64,000 bases of DNA from an uncultured Paraprevotella sp. (GTDB lineage: Bacteria > Bacteroidota > Bacteroidia > Bacteroidales > Bacteroidaceae): assembly GCA_944321525.1 (NCBI GenBank), contig CALULQ010000006.1, positions 56,965 through 120,964 of the forward strand. Direction: 5' to 3'. Position numbers and translations under genes: made by a program. This document shows positions 17,640 through 59,983 of this stretch, one piece after another. Numbering within the stretch: position 1 is the first letter of the stretch; each line of letters starts with the position of its first letter. The notes beneath the pieces were generated by a model. That model worked only from the letters and a program-made list of their open reading frames with translations, had not been told where the DNA came from and made no database searches.

Positions 17640-17700
17640 CGCACAGTACTCTGCGGAGAGTACTCGAGTACTTGCCGCAAAGTACGCTGCCGCATTCCGC
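17640..17700. repeat. Interspersed palindromic repeat, locus 1
   Basis: Contains the perfect 14-base palindrome AGTACTCGAGTACT, preceded by a hairpin GTACTCT-GCGG-AGAGTAC and followed by TGCCGCAAAGTACG. The same building blocks recur at 26.77 and 36.13 kb. It fills the gap between divergent map and the NCS2 permease. The word GCGACGAA occurs at 17592, about 50 bases before it, as it does upstream of the other two copies. Confidence 0.8.
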
Positions 17701-26769: not shown

Positions 26770-26842
26770 GAATCGTGCTTTGCGGAGAGTACGCGAGTAC
26801 TTGCCGCAGAGTACTCGAGTACTTCCCGCAAAGTACGCAGGC
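26770..26842. repeat. Interspersed palindromic repeat, locus 2
   Basis: Two tandem copies of a 22-base unit (GAGAGTACGCGAGTACTTGC, then CAGAGTACTCGAGTACTTCC) flanked by outward arms (CGAATCGTGCTTTGCGG on the left; CCCGCAAAGTACGCAGG on the right) that are themselves roughly inverted. It occupies the gap between folK and the PIN-domain pair. GCGACGAA lies at 26701, as upstream of the other copies. Nothing else is recognisable in this 420-base gap apart from the promoter of the next gene. Confidence 0.8.
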
Positions 26843-36120: not shown

Positions 36121-36201
36121 GGCGGAATTGTACTTTCCGCAAAGCACTCGAGTACTTGCCGCAGAGTACTCGAGTACTTGCCGCAGAGTACGATTCCGCG
36201 T
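36121..36201. repeat. Interspersed palindromic repeat, locus 3
   Basis: Two tandem 22-base units with the core ACTCGAGTACTTGCCGCAGA, flanked by near-perfect outer inverted arms: GGCGGAATTGTACTTTCCGC on the left and GCAGAGTACGATTCCGC on the right. Same family as the repeats at 17.64 and 26.77 kb. GCGACGAA lies at 36078. It fills most of the gap between tilS and the small membrane protein gene; nothing else is seen there besides promoters. Confidence 0.82.
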
Positions 36202-36644: not shown

Positions 36645-36715
36645 GGTTCCCTGACCGAGTGGCTAGGTAACGGTCTGCAAAACCGTCTACAGCAGTTCGA
36701 ATCTGCTGGGAACCT
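36645..36715 (+). tRNA. tRNA-Cys (GCA), first copy
   Basis: 71 bases. Acceptor arms GGTTCCC and GGGAACC pair perfectly; the anticodon arm ACGGT-CTGCAAA-ACCGT gives anticodon GCA; the T arm is AGCAG-TTCGAAT-CTGCT. CCA is not encoded. Identical to the next copy. Confidence 0.95.
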
Positions 36716-36734: not shown

Positions 36735-36805
36735 GGTTCCCTGACCGAGTGGCTAGGTAACGGTCTGCAAAACCGTCTACAGCAGTTCGAATCTGCTGGG
36801 AACCT
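36735..36805 (+). tRNA. tRNA-Cys (GCA), second copy
   Basis: Identical 71-base copy, 19 bases downstream of the first, so probably a single transcript processed into two tRNAs. Confidence 0.95.
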
Positions 36806-44935: not shown

Positions 44936-45793
44936 ATGAACTTTGCAAATAGAATCACACTTTCCGCTCTCGTGTTCCTACTGTTCACCTCCAGTGCATG
45001 GGCACAATTCTTCGAATACGGAAGCATGACGTTTCTCGGCAATCCGCTGGACAAGACCGCTCAAATCATGGATTGCAAAACCAGCATCTCGGGCGACCTC
45101 GTGATACCCGAAACCGTGGAAGGACTCACAGTGACAGCCATCAGCACTGCGGCTTTTGAGAACTGCAACAAGCTCACCTCGGTGAAAATCCCCAATACCG
45201 TGACCACCATCTGGTCGGAGGCCTTCAAGGACTGCTACAATCTGCAATCCGTCCAATTATCCACCGCCCTCACGGAACTTGTTTCAGGCACATTTGAAAA
45301 TTGCAGGAGTCTGTCCGCCGTCGACATCCCGACCTCCGTCACGGAAATCGGTTATACCGTTTTTCAAGGATGTAGCAGCTTGTCTTCCGTGACAATCCCC
45401 AACAGCGTCAAGACGATAGGTTTAGGAGCTTTTGAGAATTGCAGGAGCCTGGCAAACATTGAGATTCCGTCGTCCGTAACGGATGTGGGCCAAAGTGCAT
45501 TCTCCGGCTGCACCGCCCTGACGTCAATCGTGCTACCCAACTCCGTCACAAAAATAGGTTCAAGTGCCTTCAAGGGTTGCACCTCCCTCGCTTCGGCCGT
45601 ATTGCCCGACTCCATCACGGACATAGGAACCTCAATGTTTGACGGCTGCACGAACCTGACCGAAGTGGAAATACCCGGTAACGTGGAACGAATATATAAT
45701 TATGCCTTCCGGGGTTGCAGCAATTTAAAGGAAATATCAATCCCCAATTCCGTCACTTTTTTCTATTCCAATGTCTTCGAGAATTGTAATTAG
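44936..45793 (+). CDS. Secreted BspA-type leucine-rich repeat protein
   Basis: 285 aa. Signal peptide ending near SSAWA, then about ten tandem LRR_5 repeats of 23 residues (for example SLSSVTIPNSVKTIGLGAFENC). The protein stops immediately after the last repeat, with no C-terminal sorting or anchoring domain, so it may be truncated; the mobile element begins close behind it. BspA-like proteins are surface adhesins or ligand binders. Confidence 0.88.
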   Translation: MNFANRITLSALVFLLFTSSAWAQFFEYGSMTFLGNPLDKTAQIMDCKTSISGDLVIPETVEGLTVTAISTAAFENCNKLTSVKIPNTVTTIWSEAFKDCYNLQSVQLSTALTELVSGTFENCRSLSAVDIPTSVTEIGYTVFQGCSSLSSVTIPNSVKTIGLGAFENCRSLANIEIPSSVTDVGQSAFSGCTALTSIVLPNSVTKIGSSAFKGCTSLASAVLPDSITDIGTSMFDGCTNLTEVEIPGNVERIYNYAFRGCSNLKEISIPNSVTFFYSNVFENCN

Positions 45794-45837
45794 AGCCGTA
45801 TAACCAACTACAAACTACCACGACTAACCATCTGAAA

Positions 45838-45854
45838 GTATTGATTTTCAATAC
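45838..45854. repeat. Short inverted repeat near left edge of the mobile element
   Basis: GTATTGA-TTT-TCAATAC, a 7-base-pair perfect inverted repeat 45 bases after the LRR gene. It could be a weak terminator (no T-run follows) or a recombinase core near the attachment site. Confidence 0.4.
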
Positions 45855-45977
45855 CATTCCATTTTTAACACTTCACGGGTACTTTTTGGATTTCCCTGAC
45901 TTTCAGTATATTTTTGCAACGTATTTCTACCGCAGAGAACTTTCACGGCTTGCGGAATGTGACGAATGTCGGACAGA

Positions 45978-46087
45978 CGACAACGGTTTACGGCTGTTTA
46001 CGGACGGCGACAAGATTGAAACGGACGTTTGATGATAGCAACGCATTCCCGGTAAGGCGACAACAGTTTACATACGTTTACGGTGGT
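45978..46087 (+). repeat. Paired 30-base direct repeats upstream of the HTH gene
   Basis: Two copies of CGACAACRGTTTAC followed by GTTTACGG, at 45978-46007 and 46058-46087, exactly 80 bases apart start to start. Each copy also contains an internal GTTTAC duplication. They precede the multi-HTH gene and integrase and may be arm-type binding sites for integrase or excisionase, or an operator. The rest of the 346-base gap before the next gene holds nothing recognised. Confidence 0.65.
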
Positions 46088-46139
46088 TCACACGCGGCAG
46101 GGATGCAGGATTTTCATGTCAAACGTCTAAAAATGAAGT

Positions 46140-47093
46140 ATGAGGAAAACAAGGAAATGTGCATTCTGCGATAGGGAGTTCACCGTGAACAGCGGAATGC
46201 AGAAATATTGCAGCGAGAAGTGTGCCGCAGAAGCGAAAAGGGAAAGGAAGAAAAGGACGCAGGACTTCATGAACGCCGTCGAACCGCTGGCGGAATTACA
46301 GGGGCAGGAATATTTCACGTTCTCGAAAGCCGCCATGCTAATGGGCTGCACACGCCAGTACATCTACAAATTAGTGGCGCAGGGCAAGCTGAAGGCATCG
46401 CGCATCGGTGGCAGGATGTCACTTGTGAGGAAAGCCGACATAGAGGCCATGCTGGAGGCAAGCCCTTATTGCAGGGTGCTGCCATTCGCAAAGCCAAAGG
46501 CTGTGGACCGCTGTAATGCAAAAACCAAAGCCAAGAACCGAAGAGCGGCACAGGCGGAAGAAAGCACGGAAGTACCCGAGTACTATTCAGGCGAGGAGAT
46601 CATGGCGAAGTTCAAGGTCAAGCAGTCGTGGCTGTACACGTCGGCCAAGCGCAACGCCGTGCCGATGTGCCGCATAGCCGGGAAGAACTACTACAGCCGC
46701 AGGCACATAGAGGAGCTTCTCGGCATAGCCGTTGACACGGCCAAGATAGAGGAATGGCTGCTGCCGGAGGAAGTGGAAGAACGCTACGGCATGGGACGCA
46801 GTGCGTTGAGGGCTTACGCCCACCGCCACGGCATCCCCACCAAACGGGAATACGGGCGCACCTACTACTCGAAAGAACACCTCGACAGCCTGCGCAGGAC
46901 AGACCTGACAGGCAACGCGGACTATTGCACGGTCGAGGAAGTGCAGCGCATATACGGATTGAGCAGCGCGAATATCTGCCACATCGTGAAGGTGAAGAAC
47001 ATAGGGAAAATAAAAGTCGGGGTGAGGAACCTGCTGCTTAAGGCCGACGTGGAGCGCGTGATGGCGGAGCGGAGGGCACAGGGACTGCAATAA
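46140..47093 (+). CDS. Multi-helix-turn-helix regulator of the mobile element
   Basis: 317 aa. An N-terminal zinc-ribbon-like part (CAFCDREF to YCSEKC, four Cys) is followed by about four excisionase/MerR-like winged helix units: YFTFSKAAMLMGCTRQYIYKLV, YYSGEEIMAKFKVKQSWLYTSA, WLLPEEVEERYGMGRSALRAYA and YCTVEEVQRIYGLSSANICHIV, each ending in a YSxxHLD-like helix. Position directly before the integrase suggests a recombination directionality factor or repressor. Confidence 0.78.
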   Translation: MRKTRKCAFCDREFTVNSGMQKYCSEKCAAEAKRERKKRTQDFMNAVEPLAELQGQEYFTFSKAAMLMGCTRQYIYKLVAQGKLKASRIGGRMSLVRKADIEAMLEASPYCRVLPFAKPKAVDRCNAKTKAKNRRAAQAEESTEVPEYYSGEEIMAKFKVKQSWLYTSAKRNAVPMCRIAGKNYYSRRHIEELLGIAVDTAKIEEWLLPEEVEERYGMGRSALRAYAHRHGIPTKREYGRTYYSKEHLDSLRRTDLTGNADYCTVEEVQRIYGLSSANICHIVKVKNIGKIKVGVRNLLLKADVERVMAERRAQGLQ

Positions 47094-47120
47094 TCCTGTG
47101 ATTGCACTATTATCCGCGAA

Positions 47121-47199
47121 TTACCATGAATGGCAGCTTCCACAGCCGCGCCATTCCTTTCCTTTGCGGCACAGTAACAATCAAAAACGAGAATGAACC
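47121..47199 (+). promoter_or_regulatory. Leader of the integrase gene, duplicated at 49949
   Basis: The order TTACC, GCTTCCA, CCTTTGCGGC, GTAACA and AAAAAC recurs with the same order and similar spacing at 49949-50019 before the excisionase-like gene. CCTTTGCGG resembles the 3' half of a TAnnTTTG promoter box. Confidence 0.5.
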
Positions 47200-48359
47200 A
47201 TGAACATTTGCAAGACAGTGACATTGCGCACACGCAAGATTAAGGAGGGACGACAACTGTCCTTCTACCTCGACTATTACCCCGGCTACCGCGACGAGGC
47301 GACGATGAAAGTCATACGCCACGAGTCGCTTGGCATCTACATTTACGCGAAGCCGAAGAACCAGCGCGAGCGCGACTACAACGAGCGCATGACCGAGCGC
47401 GCTGAGGCTTTGCGCTGCCGCAGGTACGAGGCGGTAGTAAACGAGCGTTACGACTTCTTCGACAAGGAGAAGACGAAAGGCGACTTCCTCGCCTACTTTA
47501 AGGCAAAGGCCGAAAAGAAGAACACCAAATGGGAACACGTTTATAAGCATTTCCACCGCTTTACGGGCGGGAAATGCACTTTCGGCGAGATTGACGTCAA
47601 CTGTGCAACCGTTTCAAGGAATACCTGCTTACCGCCCCGCAGTTCCTCCACACGAAACGGAAGCTGCACGTCAATTCCGTAGCGGGCTACTGGTCAACGT
47701 TCCGCGCGGTGCTGCACACCGCCTACCGCGAGCGGAAAATACGGGAGAATCCCAACGGATTCCTTGAACGCATAGACACCATCCCCACCGAGAAAGAACA
47801 CCTTTCGCAGGACGAACTGATACGGCCTGCGGACACTCCGTGCGATGCGCCGGTGCTGAAAAAGGCCTTCCTCTTTGCCTGCCTGACGGGATTGCGCAAG
47901 AGCGACGTGAAAGCCCTTACGTGGGAGAACATACAACCTTACGGCGACGGCAGGATGTACGTCACGGTGAGGATGCAGAAGACGAAAGACCTCGTGAACA
48001 ACCCGATAAGCGACGAGGCGCTGGAACTCGCCGGGCCGAGAGGCACGGGGCGCGTATTCCCTGAGTTTAAGGACAGCATGACACAGGCACCGCTGAAAAA
48101 GTGGCTAAAAGCCGCAGGGATAACCAAGCGGATAAGCTTCCATTCAAGCCGCCACACATTCGGTTCGCTGCAGGTCGAGGCAGGTACGAGCATCTATGTA
48201 GTCCAAAGACTTCTCGCCCACAAGAACGTGAGCACGACGCAGATTTACGCGGAAATGGCTGACGAGCTGAAGCGGCAGTCGGTGGACAGGATAACATTGA
48301 AACACCATATATCGGAACAGGGAACAGGAACCGCCGGGAAAAGCAACATTGCAGTATGA
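47200..48359 (+). pseudogene. Tyrosine recombinase (integrase), frameshifted
   Basis: Restoring one base gives a 386-aa integrase. The N-terminal part (47200-about 47600) reads in frame to GEIDVN; the sequence GTCAACTGTGCAAC then lacks one C relative to the expected GTC-AAC-CTG-TGC, and the continuing frame (CNRFKEYLLTAPQFL...) runs to 48359. The catalytic domain is otherwise intact: Arg in TGLRKSDV, HSSRHTFG, LAHKNVSTTQIYAE with the His and nucleophile Tyr. As it stands no complete enzyme can be made without frameshifting. Confidence 0.85.
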
Positions 48360-48381
48360 AAGGGTTAAACCATTGGCAGGC

Positions 48382-48677
48382 AGAGGGGGTTACCAAAACG
48401 GCAACCCCCTCTTTGCTAAATATATCGTGCTAAAGGTCAGGGGGTGACCATTTTGGTCACTCCCTAACCTGACAATTCCCTGTAGCCAAACAGCTACTTA
48501 TGCAGTCTGCTGATAGAGGCAGGGAGGGGGTGGCCAAAATGGCCACCCCCTCCTATACTTCTTTCTCTGGCAGGATGGTCCTGCAATGTAAGCCGTTGGC
48601 ACATAAGGGGGTTGTTGAAACTACAACCCCCTGTTTGAGTTCCCTGCATAAGGGGGCGATAAAACGTCGACCTCCTA
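48382..48677. repeat. Array of four to five structurally matching hairpins
   Basis: Inverted repeats at 48382-48412 (13 bp stem, one mismatch), 48434-48470 (16 bp, two non-Watson-Crick positions), 48523-48553 (13 bp, perfect) and 48606-48632 (10 bp, perfect), plus a degenerate one at 48649-48677. Each left arm contains GGGGGT and each right arm CCC; the first three have 5-base A- or T-rich loops. The inner stem bases differ between hairpins but change on both sides together. No gene is seen in 48360-48906, and no T-runs follow, so these are not ordinary terminators. Confidence 0.8.
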
Positions 48678-48881
48678 CGCTTTTATATGACCTTATCCTG
48701 ACAACGCTTATTATACGGTTAGTAAAGTTTAGAACGGACAATGCCATTCCTTTGTTGTCCGTAAATCCTGTTTCAGAATATCCAAGTATGATTTTAAGTA
48801 TGATTTCATGCCCGAAACGTAAATAAGCTTAATAATCAGATGCTTATCCGTTAGTTATTCACGGTTGTTCATTAACATCCG

Positions 48882-48889
48882 TACCTTTG
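48882..48889 (+). promoter_or_regulatory. -7 box of the membrane protein gene
   Basis: TACCTTTG, 17 bases before the ATG at 48907; it rules out the longer start at 48865. Confidence 0.6.
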
Positions 48890-48906
48890 CGGAAAAACGG
48901 GAAGCA

Positions 48907-49728
48907 ATGACAGACAACCGAAAGAAAAATGAAAGTGTTACGGGCATGAGGGAAGCCTGCTTAGTGTGGGGGCTGCCCGGTGTGGCCATACTAGCCATAT
49001 CCCTGCTGGCGGCTGTGAGCATAGGCAGAGATTTCGGGCATGACGTATTCGTAAGGACGGTGACGTTCATAGGCAGCAACTTACTGCTGTGGCTGCTTTA
49101 CGTCCTGCTGTTCCAAATGCTGCCTGCCGAACTGTACGGCTGCGTCAGCGGAAAGAAGCACAGCCGCCCGTCCATCCCGATTGAAACTGCCGTTTCCGCT
49201 GAGAAAGCGAAAGACGTCCGTCCGATTACGGCTGAAACCGCAACCGTTACGGACATCCGGACAAAGGAACAGCCTGTCAGCAGTGCAGACAGCTATGCCA
49301 TGCGTTGCGAACAGCACAAACGTCAGTGTGAACAGGAAAAGGCCAACCTCGTGGGCGCAATCATCGACTACGTGAACTATATCATGCCCCCATACGTTGA
49401 CGAGGACAGCCTCGTTTCTCTTTGCGGCGAGATACGGATGTGGGCGGAGGACAGTGCGCATAAGCCCGAGGCAGTACGGCTGAAAGGCAGGCTCACCACT
49501 GTTGACCTGCGCCACTTCGCGTGGAACATCGGCGAGCGGCTAGGCAAGGAGAACGGCTACGACGGAACTGCGCGCGCCGTGTTCATCAAGGCCATGTTCC
49601 CCGACGTGTTCAAGGACACCGAGATAGAAAGCATCAAGAACTTCAAGCTCAACCCAAAGGCCTGCCGCATCCCGATTGACGAGCCGGGGGACGGCAACTA
49701 TGCCTTTCATTATCCCTATTCCGCATGA
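48907..49728 (+). CDS. Mobile-element membrane protein of unknown function
   Basis: 273 aa from the ATG at 48907 (MTDNRKKNESVTGMREACLV). Two N-terminal transmembrane helices (about residues 20-75) are followed by a Thr/Ala/Glu-rich linker and a soluble helical C-terminal domain (VGAIIDYVNYIMPPYVDEDSL; RHFAWNIGERLGKENGYDG). I do not recognise a named family. Similar proteins are common in Bacteroides mobilizable elements. A terminator follows. Confidence 0.72.
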   Translation: MTDNRKKNESVTGMREACLVWGLPGVAILAISLLAAVSIGRDFGHDVFVRTVTFIGSNLLLWLLYVLLFQMLPAELYGCVSGKKHSRPSIPIETAVSAEKAKDVRPITAETATVTDIRTKEQPVSSADSYAMRCEQHKRQCEQEKANLVGAIIDYVNYIMPPYVDEDSLVSLCGEIRMWAEDSAHKPEAVRLKGRLTTVDLRHFAWNIGERLGKENGYDGTARAVFIKAMFPDVFKDTEIESIKNFKLNPKACRIPIDEPGDGNYAFHYPYSA

Positions 49729-49817
49729 GGAACATCTTGGTATTTTATAGGTAAAGACAAATCACGCAACAAGTCAAGGCGGTAGCCATGACTTGATTTC
49801 TCATACAATACATCCGC

Positions 49818-49859
49818 AAGCGTCCGCTGCCATCCACGGCAACGGGCGCTTTTGTTTTT
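49818..49859 (+). terminator. Terminator after the mobile-element membrane protein
   Basis: Arms 49818-49831 and 49838-49851 form a 14-base-pair stem with two imperfect positions and a 6-base loop, followed by TTTGTTTTT. Confidence 0.75.
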
Positions 49860-49948
49860 CCCTGATGTCCCGTTTGCAAGCCTTTCCTTTCACATTGGTC
49901 GTGGAAGTTCGCGGTCAGTGGAATTATTACGCTGTGACTGCGCTGTTA

Positions 49949-50019
49949 TTACCCTATGGCCGCTTCCATCGCATATCCATAGCGTTCCTTTGCCGCCGTA
50001 ACCAAAAACAATCTGCAAA
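49949..50019 (+). promoter_or_regulatory. Leader of excisionase-like gene, copy of the integrase leader
   Basis: Second copy of the 47121-47199 leader: TTACC, GCTTCCAT, CCTTTGCCGCC, GTAACC and AAAAACAATC in the same order. A shortened echo (ATAACAAAAACG) precedes the MobC-type gene at about 52043. Confidence 0.5.
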
Positions 50020-50394
50020 ATGGAAAAGACAGAACTCACATTCAACGACCTGCCCCGCGTGGTTGCGAGGCTGCTCGACGAAGTGTCGGGCATGAAGCTG
50101 ATGCTTGCCGAAATGAGGGATGCCGACAAGCCGCGCAAGGCCGACACCCACCAGCCCATGAGCGTGGAGGAGGCATCGGCATACCTGAGAATACCCCTCG
50201 GCACATTCTACATGAAGCTGGCCAACGGCACCATTCCCGCCACGAAGCCCGGCAAGCGTTATGTCCTGTACAAGGACGAGCTTGACAAATGGCTGGAGGC
50301 CAACCGCAAGAACCCCGTGCCGCTGACGGCGGACGAGGAGAACGAGGCCATAATGTCAACGCACAGGCGCAAGCCTGGCAGGAAAGACTGGTAG
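50020..50394 (+). CDS. Excisionase-family helix-turn-helix protein
   Basis: 124 aa. An N-terminal helix (VVARLLDEVSGMKLMLAEM) is followed by an Xis/MerR-type winged helix: MSVEEASAYLRIPLGTFYMKLANGTIPATKPGKRYVLYKDELDKWL. Such proteins usually help excision or regulate transfer. It lies 3 bases before the next gene. Confidence 0.85.
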   Translation: MEKTELTFNDLPRVVARLLDEVSGMKLMLAEMRDADKPRKADTHQPMSVEEASAYLRIPLGTFYMKLANGTIPATKPGKRYVLYKDELDKWLEANRKNPVPLTADEENEAIMSTHRRKPGRKDW

Positions 50395-50397
50395 CCT

Positions 50398-51366
50398 ATG
50401 GAATCCAAGCACAAGATAAAGAGCTTTGCCGTGTACATAGAACACCGCAGCGCGGTGGACTGCCTCGACGACGCTATGGCGGGCAGGCTGCTCAAGGCCT
50501 TGTTCGCATACGCCGTCGACGGCGCGGAACCCGAATGGGACGACAAGGCGTTGACGGCTGTGTTCAAGATGTTCAAGTCGCAGGTGGACAGGAACGCGGA
50601 GGCCTATCGTGAAAAGTGTGCCAAGAACGCCGCCAACGCAAGCAGGCGCGGCAAGGCCGTTTCCGGCGCAGCCGTGGTAAGCGAAACGGCAACGGAAGCG
50701 GCGGTCAGCAGCGGTGGCAGACGGAATGCAACGGAGGCAGACGACGGCCAGCGAACGCCAGCGGTCGCTAACGGACGTTGGCCAAACGGGGATAACCATA
50801 AAACTAACTATAACCATAAACTTAAAATTGAAGAAGATGAAAAAGAAGAAACTGTCAAAGAAGAAAATCCGGGAAAGAAGAATGATGTGGCAAATGCCGG
50901 AAACGGTGATGCCGGAACAGGAATGCGTTATCAGGATGTTCCTGTCGCTGTGCAACATGCCGGGGAAGCCTTTGCCGTCCAAAAAGAAAACGGTGCCGCC
51001 CATGAGGAAGCACCCGGCAATCTCTCCTTTTGCACGGTATGGCGCATGTATGGCAAGCCCGTCGGCAATGCCGTTTGGCTGGAAAAGCAATGGAACGCCT
51101 TGCCGGACGCGGACAAGGAGGCCATACTCGGATATGTTCCGCTTTACGTGTCCGAAAGACCCGACCCGAAGTACCGAAAGAACTTCAGCAACTTCCTTGC
51201 GGAACGCACATGGGAAGCGAAACCGATAACACCTGCTGCTTATGGAAAATACGGACAACAAGACAACGGCACTGCAACAACTGGGGTACGCGCACGGGAC
51301 GATGCCGCCGACCTCACGGAAGAACTCATCGCAAGGTGCGGTGACAGTGGCGGAAGAAGTGCGTGA
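50398..51366 (+). CDS. DUF6291-like accessory protein
   Basis: 322 aa. The N-terminal 80 residues (FAVYIEHRSAVDCLDDAMAGRLLKALFAYA to FKMFKSQVDRNAEAYREKC) match the replication-associated DUF6291 type seen on phages and mobile elements. A low-complexity linker (Asn/Lys/Glu-rich) leads to a C-terminal winged-helix-like domain (WRMYGKPVGNAVWLEKQWNALPD). Probably binds DNA or recruits replication proteins; not demonstrated. It overlaps the next gene by 125 bases in a different frame. Confidence 0.7.
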   Translation: MESKHKIKSFAVYIEHRSAVDCLDDAMAGRLLKALFAYAVDGAEPEWDDKALTAVFKMFKSQVDRNAEAYREKCAKNAANASRRGKAVSGAAVVSETATEAAVSSGGRRNATEADDGQRTPAVANGRWPNGDNHKTNYNHKLKIEEDEKEETVKEENPGKKNDVANAGNGDAGTGMRYQDVPVAVQHAGEAFAVQKENGAAHEEAPGNLSFCTVWRMYGKPVGNAVWLEKQWNALPDADKEAILGYVPLYVSERPDPKYRKNFSNFLAERTWEAKPITPAAYGKYGQQDNGTATTGVRARDDAADLTEELIARCGDSGGRSA

Positions 51367-51913
51367 CAGGCTGAAGCTCATACACCCGACAATCAAGGAC
51401 TTCATGCTTGCCAACAGTCCCGACCGCCAGACGGAGGTGTGCGCCAACCCATACGGGTGCCACTTCGGCGGCTCTCCCACGCTGTCACAACTGAATGCCT
51501 GCTATGGCGTAACTGCGGCGGAGGCATGGCTTGTGCCGCAGCTTTACGAGCTTGGCAACTTCGAGGGGCTGAAGGGCCAAGCCGACAGGCACCAGCTCGC
51601 CAAGACCGCAAAGATAATCGCCACGGAATTCCATTACCTCAAGACCGACGAACTGCTGCTTTTCTTCTACCGTTTCAGCACGGGCAGGTACGGCAGGTTC
51701 TACAGCTATTTCACGCCGTCGGTAATCATCCACGGCCTGCGGAGTTTTCTCGACGAGCGCGCGGCCGCGTTCAACAAGCGCGAACAGGAACGGCGTGAAA
51801 GGGCTTGGGAGGAGGCAAGGCGCAATGCCGTGACGTATGAGGAATATCTCAAGAACAAGGGACGGTCGGCAAGGCAGCAGCCGGAAGATGGCGGAGGCCC
51901 GCTTGACGAATGA
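51242..51913 (+). CDS. DUF6633-like accessory protein
   Basis: 223 aa from the ATG at 51242, overlapping the previous gene by 125 bases. Resembles the DUF6633 family of Bacteroides mobile elements: LSQLNACYGVTAAEAWLVPQLYELGNFEG and FYRFSTGRYGRFYSYFTPSVIIHGLRSFL. The latter resembles replication-initiator accessory segments. An internal start after the overlap cannot be excluded. Confidence 0.65.
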   Translation: MENTDNKTTALQQLGYAHGTMPPTSRKNSSQGAVTVAEEVRDRLKLIHPTIKDFMLANSPDRQTEVCANPYGCHFGGSPTLSQLNACYGVTAAEAWLVPQLYELGNFEGLKGQADRHQLAKTAKIIATEFHYLKTDELLLFFYRFSTGRYGRFYSYFTPSVIIHGLRSFLDERAAAFNKREQERRERAWEEARRNAVTYEEYLKNKGRSARQQPEDGGGPLDE

Positions 51914-51925
51914 GGAAGAACGGAT

Positions 51926-52027
51926 GTGTTTTAGGGCTGGCAAGTTAATGTTTTCGCCCACGAAAACAACGCCACCAACGGCGACCCGGCCACGCGGAGA
52001 ACGGCACCCCCCATAGCCCTAAAACAC
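51926..52027 (+). other. Probable oriT: nested inverted repeats before mob genes
   Basis: GTGTTTTAGGGCT (51926-51938) is repeated as a perfect inverted copy at 52015-52027, enclosing 76 bases. Inside lies a second perfect hairpin, GTTTTCG-CCCA-CGAAAAC (51950-51967), and a GCC/GGC-rich stem. It directly precedes the MobC-type gene and the relaxase gene, the usual place for a transfer origin. The nick site cannot be read off. Confidence 0.65.
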
Positions 52028-52060
52028 ACTTCCATTTATAACCGATAACAAAAACGTAGT

Positions 52061-52411
52061 ATGACAGACCCAGACAACAGACATAAGGGCGGACGGCCAA
52101 AGTCCGCAAAGGGCAAGGCACGGACGAAGACCGTTTCCACGAGGCTCACCGTGGCCGAATGGAAGACCGTGATGAAGCGCGTCGCCGATGCCGGGAAGAA
52201 ACCGTCGCACTTCCTGCGTGAGCTTCTCCTACAGGGCAAGGTCGTGACGGCACGGACGCAGGAGGACAGGAAACAGATACGGATGCTGGAGGGCGGCTGC
52301 AACAACCTGAACCAGTTGGCGAAGATGGCGCACCAGCAGGGCTTTCCGAAAACCAAAGGAAAAATCACCGCCCTGCTGGACGAGTTCAACAAAATTATCG
52401 CAAGGATATGA
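52061..52411 (+). CDS. MobC-type relaxosome accessory protein
   Basis: 116 aa. Basic N-terminus (GGRPKSAKGKARTKTVSTRLT) and ribbon-helix-helix-like core (VAEWKTVMKRVADAGKKPSHFLRELLLQGK), ending in the family's NNLNQLAKMAHQQGF helix. Such proteins bind oriT and help the relaxase. In Bacteroides literature equivalent genes are often called mobA. It overlaps the relaxase start by 4 bases. Confidence 0.88.
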   Translation: MTDPDNRHKGGRPKSAKGKARTKTVSTRLTVAEWKTVMKRVADAGKKPSHFLRELLLQGKVVTARTQEDRKQIRMLEGGCNNLNQLAKMAHQQGFPKTKGKITALLDEFNKIIARI

Positions 52412-53493
52412 TGGGCGACTTGAAGAAACGGGCGAGCTTCGCCAAACTGGTGAATTACGTGAACAACCCGAAGAAAGCGCGGCTCATCGACAGCAAGGAC
52501 GTGCGGCTTGACAGCAACGCCACCATCGCGGCGAGTATGCAAGGACAGGCGGACGACAAGCCGGGACGCAGGCTGAAAAATCCGGTGTACCACATTTCGT
52601 TGGATTTCGCCCACGAGGACACGCCCAAGCTGACGGACGGCCTGATGGTGGAAATAGCCCGTGAGTATATGCGGCGCATGGGTATTGTGAACACCCAATA
52701 CATCGTATGCAGACATACAGATACAGAACACCAGCACATGCACATCGTGGCCAACAGGGTGGATAACAACGGGAACACCATCAGCGACCGTAACGATGCT
52801 GTGCGGAACGTGGCGGTGTGCAAGGCCCTCACAAGGGAATACGGCCTGCACTTCTCCAAAGGCAAGATGAACGTGAAGCGTGACCGTCTGCGCGGCAAGG
52901 ACAAGGTGAAGTACCAAATCCACGATGCCGTCAAAGCCGCCTTGCCCCGTTGCGGCGGTTGGTCGGAATTGTGCGACAAGCTGGCCGAACAGGGTATCGG
53001 CACCAGTTTCAAGTTCGACAGGCGCAATGGCAACATTGTCGGCGTGTCGTTCACCAAAGACGGCCTTTCATTCAGCGGCTCACGGATTGACCGGAGCATG
53101 GGCTTTTATAAGTTGGATAAGCTGCTGGGCGGACGCATCACTGACAATGTGGAATGGAGGAACAATCTGTATGGAGAAAACTGCATCCGGCCAATGGACG
53201 AACTCCATGCAAACAAAGAAGTATTCGCTTACGAATCAGACAGTCCATTTGAAAAGACAATAAAATCCATTTCTACCGATGGGCAAACATCCCCGTCCGA
53301 CAACGGGACTTCCGCCGAAACCGATGCCAATGCAAGCATAGTCCGAGTGGGCATAGGCGTACTCGTTGAGCTGTGCGTTCAGCCGCACCAAGCAAAGGTA
53401 TCATCCGGCGGCGGAGGTGGAGGAAATGAAAGCGGCTGGGGCGACAGCGACAAGGAAAAGGACAAACTTAAACCAAGAAGGAGAAGAAGATGA
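52408..53493 (+). CDS. MobA/VirD2-type relaxase
   Basis: 361 aa. The HUH-like metal motif HTDTEHQHMHIVANRV gives His103, His108, His110 and His112, with HISLDFAHED before it. The nicking Tyr is probably Tyr17 in KLVNYVNNP. The C-terminal 90 residues are low complexity (poly-Gly and Lys/Arg). It nicks oriT and leads the strand into a recipient through a helper conjugation system. Confidence 0.9.
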   Translation: MMGDLKKRASFAKLVNYVNNPKKARLIDSKDVRLDSNATIAASMQGQADDKPGRRLKNPVYHISLDFAHEDTPKLTDGLMVEIAREYMRRMGIVNTQYIVCRHTDTEHQHMHIVANRVDNNGNTISDRNDAVRNVAVCKALTREYGLHFSKGKMNVKRDRLRGKDKVKYQIHDAVKAALPRCGGWSELCDKLAEQGIGTSFKFDRRNGNIVGVSFTKDGLSFSGSRIDRSMGFYKLDKLLGGRITDNVEWRNNLYGENCIRPMDELHANKEVFAYESDSPFEKTIKSISTDGQTSPSDNGTSAETDANASIVRVGIGVLVELCVQPHQAKVSSGGGGGGNESGWGDSDKEKDKLKPRRRRR

Positions 53494-54272
53494 AAGACGA
53501 AATGCAGAATCTCACAGACCTCATAGGGGCGTTGGCCGAGGACATAGAGGCCATCAAGACGAAGCTCGACGAAAAGGACGCTTCGGACAAGGACGAGGCG
53601 GTGAAAAGGCTGGCCACGAAACTGGAGCCGATAGTCCGTTTTGCAGGAGGCAAGGCCATTGACAACATCAATGACATATTCAGAGATGAAGAAACTATCG
53701 CCGCTTACAGGAAATCACTGGGCGATGAAGTGATAGCGAGCTTGCAGGCGAACATGGAAGCCAATGAAAAGGACATGCGCAATCGTGGCATACCCTCCTT
53801 AACCGAACTCCTAACGAACATCCGCAAGATGCTGGCGGAGCATATAGAAGAAAGCAGGCAAAAACCGGAAAACGGACAGCAGAACCAACGGCAGACAAAC
53901 GGGCTTCCGCGTTTCCCAAAGTGCAAGACCATATCCAAGCGGATAAAATCGCTGTGGCACAAAATCCCCGACGGCTGGTACAAGAATCCTTACGCATGGA
54001 CTGGCATAGGAGCCATACTTGTATTCGTCACGCTGTTTGTCATCAGTTGGATGCAATGGCACCGATACCGGGAGGAAAACATACGGTTGAGAATTGCGAT
54101 GGACAAGCACCGGGTGGCCATAAGCATCGTCCGAGAACTGCATCCGTCATTGGCCGTAACCGTCGGTGCTTACGAGGAACTGACGGAGCAAGTCGGTGCC
54201 GATTCCACGCTGGCCGTGTTCCGCAGACAGGTGGAGAAAGTGAGAAATAATGAAACCAATTCCAAACAATAA
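53490..54272 (+). CDS. Mobilization-associated coiled-coil membrane protein
   Basis: 260 aa, overlapping the relaxase gene by 4 bases. Acidic coiled-coil N-terminus (LIGALAEDIEAIKTKLDEKDASDKDEAVKRL), a basic stretch, one transmembrane helix near 175-195 (WTGIGAILVFVTLFVISWMQW) and a helical C-terminus. Similar proteins follow relaxase genes in Bacteroides mobilizable transposons. It may tether the relaxosome to the membrane; this is inference. Confidence 0.72.
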   Translation: MKDEMQNLTDLIGALAEDIEAIKTKLDEKDASDKDEAVKRLATKLEPIVRFAGGKAIDNINDIFRDEETIAAYRKSLGDEVIASLQANMEANEKDMRNRGIPSLTELLTNIRKMLAEHIEESRQKPENGQQNQRQTNGLPRFPKCKTISKRIKSLWHKIPDGWYKNPYAWTGIGAILVFVTLFVISWMQWHRYREENIRLRIAMDKHRVAISIVRELHPSLAVTVGAYEELTEQVGADSTLAVFRRQVEKVRNNETNSKQ

Positions 54273-54283
54273 ACTCAAAGTGA

Positions 54284-54394
54284 ATGACATCCATCAAAGT
54301 GAAATTCCGCCCATCCGCCACGGACGGCAGCATCTATTATCAGGTTATCCGTAGCCGCGCAGTCCGCCAAATAGGCACGGAGTCTCATTTGTAA
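54284..54394 (+). pseudogene. N-terminal fragment of a second tyrosine recombinase
   Basis: 36 codons reading MTSIKVKFRPSATDGSIYYQ then VIRSRAVRQIGTESHL and a stop. This is the typical opening of Bacteroides phage-integrase-type recombinases (MTSIKVKFRPS...IYYQ). The rest of the roughly 400-aa gene is missing; the sequence changes to unrelated AT-rich DNA at the break. It probably marks a deletion or insertion junction at the right edge of the element. Confidence 0.72.
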
Positions 54395-54505
54395 GCTATT
54401 GCATAATAAGTTTTTCGGCCATAAGCATCCTGCCTACAGCCGAAAGACTTTAACTTTAACATTGCAAGAGTTTGGTGAATCCCATTCCTAAAATACGCAA
54501 ATGAC

Positions 54506-57500
54506 TTATCCAATGGAAACTTTACCTTCTATTTCTTTTAATTTTTTCGATGTTAACGCAGCTTTATATATCCGGCGCAAGGTTGACATAATATTTTCTC
54601 CAGTGCGTTTATAGCCAAACTCTCGTGCTGTTACGATAAACAAATCTTCTGGTGTAATGCCAAAGCTATTTTGAACAATTGTTGTCATGGCTAATAGCAG
54701 TTCGTCATCACAAATGTAATTTATCGGTCTTAAGAACTCGCTTCCCTCTTGTGGAACTCTAACTTTTAACTCCTTAAAATCTTTAAGGCTGATAAAAGAA
54801 CCCTTGTTTTCAATATAGCTTCTTAGGTTTGTCGTAAGTAACGTTCTGATTTCATTCCGCACAACAGATGTTGCTTTTTGACGGCCATATAGTGGAGCCA
54901 TCTTTCTACAAAGCTCTTCAAAATGTATTGGCTGTTCAATTTCAATAATTTTTTTCAAAGCATTTGAAGGTGTCATATATATATATTCATCAGAGTTGCA
55001 CAGATGGTACTCCTCAAAACCAAATCTATTCGTATTTTTCGGAGTTTCAATCTTTTCTTCTATAATAATATCATTGGCTATTTTTTGTTGATGTTCATTT
55101 GTATCAATGCTCCCATTTTGACTGCTTTTAAACGAATCTTCAATCGCTGCAAGTAGTCTATCTTTTTCAGATTTAAAATCTTTAATCCAATCAGTTGACC
55201 AAATTCTATAAATTTTCCACCCCATACTTTCAAGAATCTCTTGACGTAATCTATCCCTTTCACGTGCAGTTCTTGAGCTATGATATGTTGCGCCATCGCA
55301 TTCAATTCCTAATATGAATTTTCCACTTTTCACAGGACTTTTTACGGCCATATCAATCCTAAACCCAGAGCATCCAACTTGGGTTACAACATCATATCCT
55401 TTAGATACTAAAAAGTCATAGACTGATTCTTCAAAAGGAGAGTCGAAATTTAATTTGTCATCGAATGTCACTTCATTTTCAAGTGCAGAGATTCCATGTT
55501 GTGTAAATTCGATGTAAGAGCGCAACATTTTCACGCCTTCGGATGATGTCCTGTCTGTATCTATATCTGTCGGCACAATAGACCCAACAAGTTTAATATT
55601 GTACTTTGCACGTGTAATGGCGACATTTAATCTTCTATATCCACCATCACGGCTCAAAGGACCAAAATTCATATACATAATACCCTTGTTATCACGTGCG
55701 TATCCGATGCTGAAAATAATAGTGTCGCGTTCATCCCCTTGTACGTTCTCAAGATTCTTTATAAAAAATGGTTCATCTTTATCTTCTGAAAAGAAGAATT
55801 CATAAGAACTATTTTGGATGCGTTTTTGACGAATAGCTGCATCTACTGCATTTTGTTGAGCTTCACTGAAAGTGACAACACCGAGCGACCTGTCTGGATA
55901 TTTGCGAATATGCTCAAATACAAGATTGGCCACCTTGTTAGCTTCTATAGGGTTATTACGTTTTCCGCTTCTATCATAAACGCCATCGGCTACATAAATA
56001 TATTCAACGCCAAAATCTGGTGCAGTTTCAATAGAGGACGGGAATGTAATCAAAGAGCCGTTATATATTTTGATATTTGAGAATGCTATTAAATGTTCAT
56101 GTCTACTCCTATAATGCCAACGCAACCCTCTTTCTGGCAAAACGGCGACAGCTTCATCGAGAATAGATTCATAAGCACCTGAATAAATGTCCTTTTCTTC
56201 AGCATCAATATCATAATCATCATCATTTAATGATGCTGCAAAAAAGTTCGTGGGTGGCAATTGCTTTGTATCGCCAACGATTATTGCTTGTTTCCCGCGC
56301 ATAATGGCACCAATTGCATCTTCGGTGTGAACTTGTGATGCCTCATCGAAAATCACCATATCAAATTCGTAGCTATTTGCCTCCAAGAATACGCTTACAG
56401 ATAATGGAGACATCATAAAGCATGGCCTTAATGACGTTATTAAATTAGGTATGGACATAAACAATTTCCGTAAAGGCATCAATCTTCTTTGTTTGCTCAA
56501 CTCCCGTTTCAAAATACCAATTTCATCTCTTGTAGTTGTTATGGCATTAAAGTCAGGCATTCTTGATAGGGCACGTTCTCTTACTCTGGCTTGTGCAATT
56601 TTAAACTGCTCCTTATCCAAAGCACAAAATCCCTCAATAGTTTGTATGTGTACATTTTTCCTAAAATTCAAAACTGCTGGAAAAAGAGGAAGCATCTTAT
56701 CAAGCCATAGATTGTAGAATCTTTTTCGATATGCATCTACAATTTCATCTGAAGATATGTTCTTTCCTTCAATTTCAAGCAAATATGAGCCCAATCCTGC
56801 ACTCACGCATTTTTCCCTTACAGAACGATAATCCACCCATTCTTCAAGAAGGTATTTATTATCTCTGCATAATTCCATTCTGCTTTTTAGCTCTGCAAAA
56901 TCACACTTGTAAAACGATGAAGAATCTTCAAACAGAGAGAAATACCAGCTTAATGGATTTGCTAAATCTACATCCAACTCTATAAATTTTTTCAGAGATT
57001 GTTTTTCGAATTCTATAAAATACTTCTCTGTGCATATCTTGGTGACGTAACTTCGAGGAAGATTATACATTTCTACATATATCCTCAAATCTTTGGCATA
57101 AGAGAGCGCGTCTTTTAATTTATTCCAGTCCGTTTTTAGGCCGTTATAATATTTCTCATAATGTTTTGAGAGATATACTTCCTTTCTCTCTAATTCTTTC
57201 TTGCCAGATTGAATTTCAGACAGAATTTGAAGTTCAGAAAGAATTGTTGTAAAATCACCATCACATTTACGTTTGCTACAAATGTCTGAATATGTCTTCT
57301 CGAAATGAGACAAATCGCTTATCAGCTCATCCAATTCTTGATTAATTGTGCCAATTCGGGTTTCTTCATCGAAACCAGTTATAAGTAATGAATTTATATT
57401 TGAATAAACGTCATCAATACGTATTTGGGTATTTTCTTCTTTAAAAGCCTTTAATTCAGATATGGGGACAACATTTTCAACCAACATCTGCTGCATTGTC

Positions 57501-59983
57501 GGTGTAATGATGCTAATCATAGACAGCATTGTTTCAAAAGTACCAACAACCTGTTCTAATAGCTCCCAGTCTGTTTCTATTCCATTATAATATATTCCAT
57601 AGTCGGCTATGTATTGTTCTTGATGTATTTCTATTTCTTTACTACTATCAGATGCGTCTTTCAATAAAGTAAGTAGAGATAACGCTTTCTGATATGATAA
57701 CTTTGAAGAATCAGTCAAATATTTCTTCAATGTCCGCATGTCAGACTTGTAGTTCCTATTTACAAATCTAAAGAATGTATCATATTCACCCCTAAAGCGT
57801 TGTAGCATTGGATATAAATCTTGTGATAAAATATCCTTATCACAAATAGCCAATACTTCCTTTTGAATCTTTTTGCACTTCTCATGCTGCGATTTGCAAT
57901 CAGCAATCGTTTTTTGTATTCTTAGAACTTCTTTTTTATTAAGAAGGTTTTGCGTAGGTGTATAATGGGAAAGAGACAATAACGTATCAAAAATTGACAC
58001 ATATTTTTTGTATTGCGCCAAAGATGTAGGAAGTTCTTTTAATCCTAATAGTTTAGCCATTTTCCCAACTTCACCATATAAATTTAGCAAAGTATTTTTA
58101 TAGGACAATACCGTTTCTTTCATGCGGGTAATGCCTTTTGCTATATCATTAGCATTTGTTTCTTTAAGGACACTTTTCAGCAACCCCATCTGATGCAACA
58201 AAGTACTATGGATTAAACAGGCATTACAATTATCTATGTCATCACAATAAACAGCATATATGTTTTTCTGGAGCTCGTTTATACTGTCTGTCAATCGGCT
58301 AAATTGCTCAATATCAGTAAATAATAAATCAAACTCATCTGAATATATCCATTTTAGAGGTATGATATAAGCTTTATCAGTCAACTTCAATAACTCTTTC
58401 AATAAATTATACCCTTCAATAGAAGCTGGAATTGCCAAATCCAACTTTTCACAACAGCTTTTGAAGCCGTCACTTATTTCTGATATGATAGGTAAACAAG
58501 CGGTAATATTTGCATCGATATCGTGCCTTAATTCATTTGTGACATACTTTACATTTGAATCCCGCCAAACATTTTGAGAATAATCTTCGGTCTTTTTCCC
58601 AATTGTTATAGATAGTTGTTTCAAAAGGTATATTCTTTCTTCCAACTGCTCAACAGATGTATCATCAACATCTTTAATATCGAAAATGTAGTTTGGAGTT
58701 CCCTCCAATTTTGCCAATTTGCCATTAACATCAAAAATTGAAATATTTAGTCTTGAACAAGGCGTATGCAATTGTTGTTGGTAATCATTCAATTCCTGAC
58801 GTTTTTTCTCCAATACAATTAATTCATGAAGAGCTTCTTCGCGAACTTTTTTCCGGTCTAAAGAGATTGAATTTGCAAGTTCGTGTAATATTTCTTTTTT
58901 ATTAGCCTTATGGCTATGCAGAGCAAAGCAAAAGTCAGCCAAACCGACTTTTGCCAAACGATTATATACGACCTGAAGTGCTGCAACCTTTTCTGACACA
59001 AACAACACTTTCTTACCATCCGCAATTGCTTCTGCGATGATATTAGTAATGGTTTGACTCTTTCCTGTCCCCGGAGGCCCTTGCAAAACAAAGCTAATGC
59101 CCTTTTTAGACAATAATATTGCGTCTTGTTGGCTTGAATCAGCGTCTACAACCTGGAATGTATCAATAGGACGTTCATTCTTGTCATGGTCAAAATTATT
59201 CAGTTCTTCAGATATTTGCATAGGTGATTGTTCACCTACTAAAGCCGATATTATAGTGTTTGAACTCAGTTTATCCTCATTTCTTTCCAAATCCTTATAC
59301 ATGTTGATTTTTAAGAAAGAAAGAGTGGTCAGATTTATACATCTTTCAACTGTCCATCCTTGATTTCGTACAACATTCTCCACTTTATTGAAGTAGGTTT
59401 CGACTTCATCTTGTGACGCATCAAAGTCTGGCAATGTTATTCCGAAATCATTATCTAATTTGTAAGATAATGTTGGATTAACAACGATGTCGTCTTCATA
59501 TAATGACAACTTGTATGGAGATGTTAGAGATTCAACTGTCAATTTAACAGGCACGAGGATTAGAGGAGAGCATAGTATTTGAGAAGAATCTTCGCGTTCT
59601 TTCCATTTTAGCAAGCCGAAAGCTAAATATAAGATGTTGATGCCTTGCTCTTCTATGGATGTATTAGCTTTATAGCGCAGATGCTTCAAAGTCCTTTGAA
59701 GGTCTTTGGGACGTTTTGAGGTTTCCACATCTCCCTCTGATATTATCTCATAAAGATTTTCATCTTCCTCAGCGTATGAATCTACCACATGTTCGATGGC
59801 ATACGGAAACTCTATCACTTTCTCTTGAATAGCTATTAATGAAAACAATGAGTCGCATGAGGGGGAGATAATGCGTACATTTGAGCGTTTGTTTTCCTTA
59901 AAATTGATAAGACGATTCCTTTTACCAAAATCAAGTAAAAGTTTCTTCCATACGTCTAACCGCTCATGAAGTTTTTGTCCCAT
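54506..59983 (-). CDS. DUF4011-helicase-Vsr-like nuclease, probable antiphage protein
   Basis: 1825 aa. DUF4011 at the N-terminus (residues about 1-190: LLLDFGKRNRLINF), a superfamily 1 helicase with Walker A GPPGTGKSQT near 302, a long coiled-coil insertion (about 380-1150), Walker B VIFDEASQV near 1215, GDTKQLPPT, VQGDERDTIIFS and RLNVAITRAK near 1450. A Vsr-like endonuclease segment follows (GIECDGATYHSSRTARERDRLR to WSTDW, about 1555-1600), then a DUF3320-like C-terminus. From memory, the DUF4011-helicase-Vsr layout was reported as a single-gene antiphage system (Gao et al. 2020). The gene is AT-rich, unlike the core, and 8 bases behind an Xre regulator. Confidence 0.88.
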   Translation of the reverse strand: MGQKLHERLDVWKKLLLDFGKRNRLINFKENKRSNVRIISPSCDSLFSLIAIQEKVIEFPYAIEHVVDSYAEEDENLYEIISEGDVETSKRPKDLQRTLKHLRYKANTSIEEQGINILYLAFGLLKWKEREDSSQILCSPLILVPVKLTVESLTSPYKLSLYEDDIVVNPTLSYKLDNDFGITLPDFDASQDEVETYFNKVENVVRNQGWTVERCINLTTLSFLKINMYKDLERNEDKLSSNTIISALVGEQSPMQISEELNNFDHDKNERPIDTFQVVDADSSQQDAILLSKKGISFVLQGPPGTGKSQTITNIIAEAIADGKKVLFVSEKVAALQVVYNRLAKVGLADFCFALHSHKANKKEILHELANSISLDRKKVREEALHELIVLEKKRQELNDYQQQLHTPCSRLNISIFDVNGKLAKLEGTPNYIFDIKDVDDTSVEQLEERIYLLKQLSITIGKKTEDYSQNVWRDSNVKYVTNELRHDIDANITACLPIISEISDGFKSCCEKLDLAIPASIEGYNLLKELLKLTDKAYIIPLKWIYSDEFDLLFTDIEQFSRLTDSINELQKNIYAVYCDDIDNCNACLIHSTLLHQMGLLKSVLKETNANDIAKGITRMKETVLSYKNTLLNLYGEVGKMAKLLGLKELPTSLAQYKKYVSIFDTLLSLSHYTPTQNLLNKKEVLRIQKTIADCKSQHEKCKKIQKEVLAICDKDILSQDLYPMLQRFRGEYDTFFRFVNRNYKSDMRTLKKYLTDSSKLSYQKALSLLTLLKDASDSSKEIEIHQEQYIADYGIYYNGIETDWELLEQVVGTFETMLSMISIITPTMQQMLVENVVPISELKAFKEENTQIRIDDVYSNINSLLITGFDEETRIGTINQELDELISDLSHFEKTYSDICSKRKCDGDFTTILSELQILSEIQSGKKELERKEVYLSKHYEKYYNGLKTDWNKLKDALSYAKDLRIYVEMYNLPRSYVTKICTEKYFIEFEKQSLKKFIELDVDLANPLSWYFSLFEDSSSFYKCDFAELKSRMELCRDNKYLLEEWVDYRSVREKCVSAGLGSYLLEIEGKNISSDEIVDAYRKRFYNLWLDKMLPLFPAVLNFRKNVHIQTIEGFCALDKEQFKIAQARVRERALSRMPDFNAITTTRDEIGILKRELSKQRRLMPLRKLFMSIPNLITSLRPCFMMSPLSVSVFLEANSYEFDMVIFDEASQVHTEDAIGAIMRGKQAIIVGDTKQLPPTNFFAASLNDDDYDIDAEEKDIYSGAYESILDEAVAVLPERGLRWHYRSRHEHLIAFSNIKIYNGSLITFPSSIETAPDFGVEYIYVADGVYDRSGKRNNPIEANKVANLVFEHIRKYPDRSLGVVTFSEAQQNAVDAAIRQKRIQNSSYEFFFSEDKDEPFFIKNLENVQGDERDTIIFSIGYARDNKGIMYMNFGPLSRDGGYRRLNVAITRAKYNIKLVGSIVPTDIDTDRTSSEGVKMLRSYIEFTQHGISALENEVTFDDKLNFDSPFEESVYDFLVSKGYDVVTQVGCSGFRIDMAVKSPVKSGKFILGIECDGATYHSSRTARERDRLRQEILESMGWKIYRIWSTDWIKDFKSEKDRLLAAIEDSFKSSQNGSIDTNEHQQKIANDIIIEEKIETPKNTNRFGFEEYHLCNSDEYIYMTPSNALKKIIEIEQPIHFEELCRKMAPLYGRQKATSVVRNEIRTLLTTNLRSYIENKGSFISLKDFKELKVRVPQEGSEFLRPINYICDDELLLAMTTIVQNSFGITPEDLFIVTAREFGYKRTGENIMSTLRRIYKAALTSKKLKEIEGKVSIG

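Follow-up and report, generated by a model that had tools for sequence, protein, structure and literature searches.

What is a row of hairpins doing immediately downstream of a mobile element's integrase gene, and is its structure kept for a purpose? The question is raised by a window of 64,000 nucleotides, the whole stretch of DNA analysed here, from an uncultured Paraprevotella sp. Five hairpins, four of them strong and the fifth weaker, stand in tandem at 48382-48676, behind the integrase of a relaxase-bearing element. A preliminary description had reported four clear hairpins and a degenerate fifth, and both the sequence and the comparison of its fold with shuffles bear this out. One other carrier was found, an uncultured Prevotellaceae bacterium of the same genus (G006, contig CASGAM010000034.1, locus L095), at 81% identity. 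The parts of the array are as follows.

48382..48412, plus strand: hairpin H1, followed by CTCTTTG; it passes the T-tail test applied to relatives
48434..48470, plus strand: hairpin H2; core inverted relative to L095, 24 of 37 positions identical as aligned
48522..48554, plus strand: hairpin H3; 33 of 33 positions identical in L095
48570..48584, plus strand: small spacer hairpin, GCAGGA-TGG-TCCTGC; L095 has A-T at two of its G-C pairs
48606..48632, plus strand: hairpin H4, followed by GTTTG; 27 of 27 positions identical in L095
48651..48676, plus strand: hairpin H5, the weaker one, in which one base is bulged; core inverted relative to L095, 17 of 26 positions identical as aligned

H1, H3 and H4 each have a 27-nt core of the form AGGGGGT...ACCCCCT, and the core of H2 is AGGGGGT...ACTCCCT. 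The five-base loop first described is a fair account, since H1-H4 each fit an outline of 11+5+11 with at most one mismatch, though a hairpin finder that extends stems gives loops of 5, 3, 3 and 7. The region 48360-48700 has a z-score of -9.44 when folded as RNA and -8.90 when folded as DNA, and none of 100 shuffles was as good in either case, so the array is not a chance fold. Because the DNA fold is almost as exceptional as the RNA fold, folding settles neither the strand nor the molecule. The two open reading frames that overlap the array, 48500-48826 (plus) and 48067-48396 (minus), are mechanical listings. The whole array is also quasi-palindromic in the window, centred on H2-H3, with a self-score of 82, and no shuffle exceeded 66. 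The corresponding values are 62 against 56 in G006 and 40 against 56 for a related pair of hairpins on contig C17 of the window's genome. The signal for a terminal inverted repeat enclosing the array was too weak, and the idea was dropped.

The genes around the array were also taken to belong to a mobilizable element, and the element does look mobilizable, with NikA/MobC and relaxase genes.

46140..47093, plus strand: gene of an HTH_17/MerR-type regulator (Pfam HTH_17 5.5e-23, MerR_1 2.1e-7), upstream of the integrase
47200..48359, plus strand: tyrosine integrase (Arm-DNA-bind_5 4.7e-8, Phage_integrase 1.8e-22)
48882..48889, plus strand: TAnnTTTG box, a putative Bacteroidota -7 element, ahead of the next gene
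48910..49728, plus strand: gene downstream of the array, without a Pfam match; an ORF lies at the same place in many relatives
52061..53493, plus strand: NikA/MobC-like protein and MobA/VirD2-like relaxase (Pfam)

Many relatives match the regulator gene at the DNA level and keep its order. Beyond the downstream gene lie an HTH_17 gene, DUF6291, DUF6633, NikA/MobC and the relaxase. The integrase is split by a frameshift into 47200-47682 and 47709-48359; it forms a single frame in L081/L095 and in the viral locus L014, so the window's copy may not be able to excise on its own. TAnnTTTG, which we take to be the Bacteroidota -7 promoter element, occurs on the plus strand of 45785-54823 only at 45909, ahead of the regulator-integrase pair, and at 48882, after the array. 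Because these two boxes flank it, the array probably lies at an operon boundary, with one likely operon ending before it and the likely promoter of the next after it.

The ends of the element can be placed approximately. Homology with the other carrier begins on the left at 45785, in the 3' end of an ORF that by eye is leucine-rich-repeat-like, and TGTA(A/T)TTAGA stands at the matching place in L095, L105, L106, L115, L132 and L133. Within 45730-45800 the left end of the window's element falls at this motif inside the repeat ORF (BspA-type by eye), and L095, L105, L106, L115 and L133 seem to begin in similar repeat ORFs. Such repeat genes are a likely integration target. At the right end, 54300-54400 holds what by eye resembles the remains of another integrase-like arm domain, cut short where G006 continues. 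Direct repeats AAGTATGATTTT lie at 48784-48806, and many relatives have AGTATGATT repeats, often inverted, between the integrase and the next gene; both are possible integrase or regulator sites. The element is adjoined on the minus strand (54506-59983) by a gene for an 1825-aa DUF4011/AAA/MTES_1575 helicase-nuclease, a candidate defence gene that matches PADLOC PDC-S37 (E 0) and Hhe (8e-190).

The array is rare. It was present in two genomes each among 150 relatives, among 18 members of the genus and among 399 of the family, and in 1 of 393 members of the order, in samples that overlap and with the window's own genome included in each count; a third family genome (G379) gave a 27-nt match only. 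A search with the integrase yielded 70 loci, and the slot behind the gene was inspected in 63 of them. Six had too little DNA, and 57 had at least 150 nt after the stop codon, of which L095 alone carries the array. Presence in only 1 of 57 integrase relatives indicates that the array is no core part of transfer. Absence from otherwise close relatives, which the preliminary description had counted against its own view, is what we find at 57-82% integrase identity, though not in the nearest relative.

Most of these relatives have a T-tailed hairpin in the slot. Using a test for a hairpin with at least 5 T in 8 positions, in which up to three stem bases were allowed to count, a T-tailed hairpin was found in 46 of the 57 slots, including L095 through its H1 (45 of 56 without L095), and 11 had none. 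Dinucleotide shuffles of the same stretches gave 5.4 of 57, and a stricter stem gave 44 of 57 against 0.2 in shuffles. By this test, H1 qualifies as T-tailed in both carriers. In L014 (IMG/VR), whose integrase segment is 77% identical, an ORF occupies the place of the next gene, the array is absent, and there is a hairpin with TTTTTC at the end of its 3' side. A terminator scan lists H3, H4 and part of H2, but its 7 sites against 4.4 +/- 2.5 in shuffles say little alone.

A second locus in the same genome offers a parallel. On contig C17, two hairpins of the array type (27 nt, and 26 nt by eye) lie behind a tyrosine recombinase that is 26% identical to the element's integrase, at a site flanked by genes for an AI-2E transporter and a SusD-family protein. 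In genome G179 (L166), a recombinase 93% identical to that of C17 is followed by a single 35-nt hairpin with a T-rich tail, TTTGTTATTT.

Position, relatives and fold favour a derived terminator zone, in which the array serves as the structured 3' end of the RNA from the regulator-integrase operon; to this reading we give a probability of about 0.4. The array would be transcribed from the promoter of that operon, and the row of predicted RNA hairpins would stop transcription before the promoter of the next operon and would guard or stabilise the end of the message. It would have arisen by multiplication of one terminator hairpin, and the likeness of the arms would be maintained in part by template switching. 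The C17 pair, set against the single T-rich-tailed hairpin of its 93% identical relative, supports this reading. Like an intrinsic (Rho-independent) terminator, the array has stable G-C stem-loops at the end of a gene, after the integrase stop and in the slot of the relatives' T-tailed hairpins. It differs in being a row of five, in its weak T-tails, and in having three stems conserved far above the spacers. The main objections to the terminator zone are that the T-tails are weak and that there are several hairpins, since one terminator-like hairpin is enough in the relatives. H1 reaches 5 T in 8 only when up to three stem bases are counted, and the count elsewhere is 1-4, with 2-4 for H2-H5 of the window. 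The claim that T-runs are lacking was thus nearly right, and gives way only at the CTCTTTG after H1 and the GTTTG after H4. The titles and opening lines of abstracts, mostly from journals outside subscription, mention nothing on tandem integrase hairpins in Bacteroides.

The array could instead act as DNA, through palindromes that extrude, or that fold when single-stranded, or through dyads bound by a protein, as at a single-strand origin or at a recombinase or regulator site. The strong DNA fold (z -8.90) and arms that are symmetric on both strands fit such a site, as do the relaxase, integrase and HTH genes of the element. Related hairpins in antirepressor genes, discussed below, have GT:AC wobble without a consistent strand (17:5 and 2:16), which points the same way. 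However, 56 of the 57 integrase relatives with enough DNA lack the array, the C17 pair lies behind a recombinase gene between transporter and SusD-family neighbours and not in a transfer region, and the inner stem bases vary, unlike those of a fixed protein site. A single-strand origin, which the preliminary description had put forward, would be expected in related elements, since second-strand synthesis needs it, and only 1 of 57 has the array. The terminator zone is better placed than an origin, as 45 of the 56 other relatives have a T-tailed hairpin in the slot. A DNA-level site seems unlikely to us on balance.

Comparison of the two carriers shows which parts of the array are kept. H1 is identical to its counterpart in L095 at 30 of 31 positions, and H1, H3 and H4 together at 90 of 91, compared with 106 of 141 (75%) in the spacers (Fisher p 1.2e-7, with these three hairpins chosen after the alignment was seen). 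All five hairpins taken together are identical at 131 of 154 positions, a slight excess over the spacers (Fisher p 0.04). Third codon positions are identical at 159 of 216 in the integrase and at 165 of 267 in the next gene. The consensus fold has 81 unchanged pairs, 6 with a change on one side, 3 changed on both sides and none broken, and it leans to agreement because it was predicted from the same two sequences. Two of the three double changes, from G-C to A-T, fall in the spacer hairpin at 48570..48584. The proposal that structure is conserved is supported by the near-invariance of H1, H3 and H4 beside spacers at 75% and by the two double changes in the spacer hairpin; H2 and H5 are not near-invariant. 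Because three hairpins are almost unchanged while the intervening DNA drifted by a quarter, the hairpins are probably maintained for a function.

H2 and H5 have changed in another way. When inverted, the core of each aligns to L095 with 2 mismatches, compared with 5 as it stands, and the cores of H1, H3 and H4 align no better when inverted. Both arms of H5 together differ from L095 by one base in length. Template switching at palindromes yields inversion and matched arms. The covariation may therefore be partly mutational in origin, and compensating changes alone are no proof of selection on an RNA, because two loops are inverted as template switching gives. The near-invariance of H1, H3 and H4 is not accounted for by this process.

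In a third alternative, the palindromes would be selfish or purely mutational, spreading and keeping their arms symmetric by template switching, without any function. The two inverted cores among five, the joint one-base difference in the arms of H5, and the occurrence of the same hairpin type behind two distantly related recombinases would all follow. The near-constancy of three hairpins amid drifting spacers does not fit, and the genome has only 5 + 2 copies of this hairpin type. The hairpins resemble REP/REPIN elements in being short palindromes, but those occur in many dispersed copies and these seven stand in two places. We regard functionless palindromes as slightly less probable than a DNA-level site. 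The window also has a dispersed repeat of three related palindromes (17646-17685, 26775-26814 and 36142-36179) of the form GTACTC...GAGTAC with TTGCCGC.

Covariation within the hairpin type was measured in a set of only 7 distinct hairpins from the window, L095 and C17, aligned to the 11+5+11 outline. Paired cells amount to 92.2%, against 85.4% in column shuffles (reached by 0 of 500), and the covariation score was equalled by 4 of 500 shuffles. Changes on both sides occur in 3 of 11 pairs, which is not striking, as 54 of 500 shuffles equal it, and further pair types are no higher than in shuffles (498 of 500).

Throughout the 3.5-Mb genome, AGGGGGT-N9-20-ACCCCCT matches only H1, H3, H4 and one C17 site (reversed control 0), and a covariance model at E <= 0.1 finds only H1-H4 and the same C17 site. 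The same loose outline is present in 36 of 200 genomes, the window's own included, but the reversed control pattern also matches many genomes. Among the loose-outline loci fetched, only that of G006 has an adjoining integrase relative. Several of 15 model or pattern loci read elsewhere are T-tailed hairpins at gene ends, which speaks for the terminator zone. Rfam 15 has no match over the array at gathering score, and only two tRNAs match in the window; weaker matches over the array, far under the gathering scores, were taken as chance. The two tRNA genes stand in tandem at 36645-36715 and 36735-36805 and by eye have the same sequence. Plasmid records do not match the array and contain only integrase relatives that are 67-71% identical across 14-36% of a 3-kb query, and phage records give one short match to it (E 0.3).

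The 27-nt match in G379 leads to a different class of genes, as the gene that contains it encodes Bro-N and ANT domains. Likewise, 3 of 40 viral pattern loci (L031, L050 and L039, the last two judged by motif) lie in antirepressor genes. The hairpin embedded in Bro-N genes often measures about 27 nt, has a short loop and in some cases shares 25 of 27 bases with array hairpins, but it is coding and single, whereas the array is non-coding and tandem. The array might then consist of non-coding copies or mimics of the Bro-N hairpin that act as RNA decoys or antisense RNAs for antirepressor messages, including those of the transfer operons of helper conjugative elements. With model R1, built from the array and C17 hairpins, the best matches outside its members are Bro-N codon blocks: L031/L242 (one contig) at 43.2 bits and L196/L334 (one gene) at 40.2 bits, compared with only 35.8 bits for the next best among the 40 pattern loci and 34.1 bits for the best other match in 91 genomes. 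Both genes adjoin a DUF5045 gene, and L031 is also near TraM and DUF4138, for which reason its contig looks like a Bacteroidota conjugative element. In 70 Bro-N loci, all six matches at E <= 0.03 fall on the codon block, and 10 of 10 array-type hairpins have their best match among 98 Bro-N-bearing loci at this block. The likeness is partly driven by codons, however, since the protein motif K-G-V-x5-T-P forces GGnGT...ACnCC. The matches are also selected, because L031, L050 and L039 were found by the hairpin pattern and L196 by DNA similarity. Moreover, 80 comparisons of the flanks gave no likeness, with a best p of 0.007, and at E <= 1e-8 neither of the two carriers (G000 and G006) has a Bro-N gene. 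Capture of the array hairpins from Bro-N genes was dropped, as the flank comparison shows nothing. We hold such mimicry to be less likely again than functionless palindromes. A bolder version makes the array a library of non-coding twins, each of which would mimic or be antisense to a different antirepressor allele, so that its RNA or DNA would silence or titrate the switch genes carried by rival phages and by helper elements. This we consider improbable.

The hairpin inside the antirepressor genes was examined in its own right. Genes were fetched by protein with patterns that avoid the hairpin block, and 77 of the best 80 of 299 relatives were tested (L257, L274 and L306 left out), 70 of them distinct, in 26-codon windows with 40 synonymous shuffles at p <= 0.05. 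A hairpin better than the synonymous shuffles stood at the block in 39 of these 70 viral-contig genes. In an offset control on 69 genes, the share with such a hairpin was 57% (39) for the block, 29% for the next window, which overlaps it, and 3-13% for windows elsewhere that do not. A second set of 30 loci from Bacteroidaceae genomes and 4 from plasmids, reduced to 25 by 3 that were not covered and 6 duplicates, gave 13 of 25 at the block against 12 of 390 windows elsewhere (12 of 24 without L334, which is the same as L196 and was found through its hairpin). The embedded hairpin is therefore real in the sense of codon choice. Some genes of the first set, of the RWxRVNxYL type, have a differently shaped hairpin at the same place of the alignment. 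The antirepressor loci concerned are L242-L321 and L330-L363, at the Bro-N codon block. An attempt to read the strand of this hairpin from GT against AC mismatches was dropped, as the two counts together came to 19:21. The titles and first lines of abstracts, again mainly from outside the subscription journals, mention no hairpin, palindrome or inverted repeat within antirepressor or Bro-N genes.

C4 antisense RNA acts on an antirepressor gene. Like the array, C4 (RF01695, of P1-type phages) is an RNA of mobile elements with hairpins, but the array resembles a block inside the antirepressor gene, pairing between array and target is hypothetical, and C4 has no match anywhere in the window. C4 matches lie upstream of antirepressor genes in 3 of 13 loci (L314:843-928, L317:867-953 and L300:618-705), and L317 has an isrK match as well.

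In summary, the array is a clear non-coding structure, partly near-constant, in a mobile element with drifting surroundings, and it occupies the slot where most of the relatives tested carry one terminator-like hairpin. About half of the tested antirepressor genes, from viral contigs and from Bacteroidaceae, hold a palindrome in a codon block beyond what the protein sequence explains. These observations raise the question of whether a nucleic-acid hairpin within antirepressor switch genes is part of their control.
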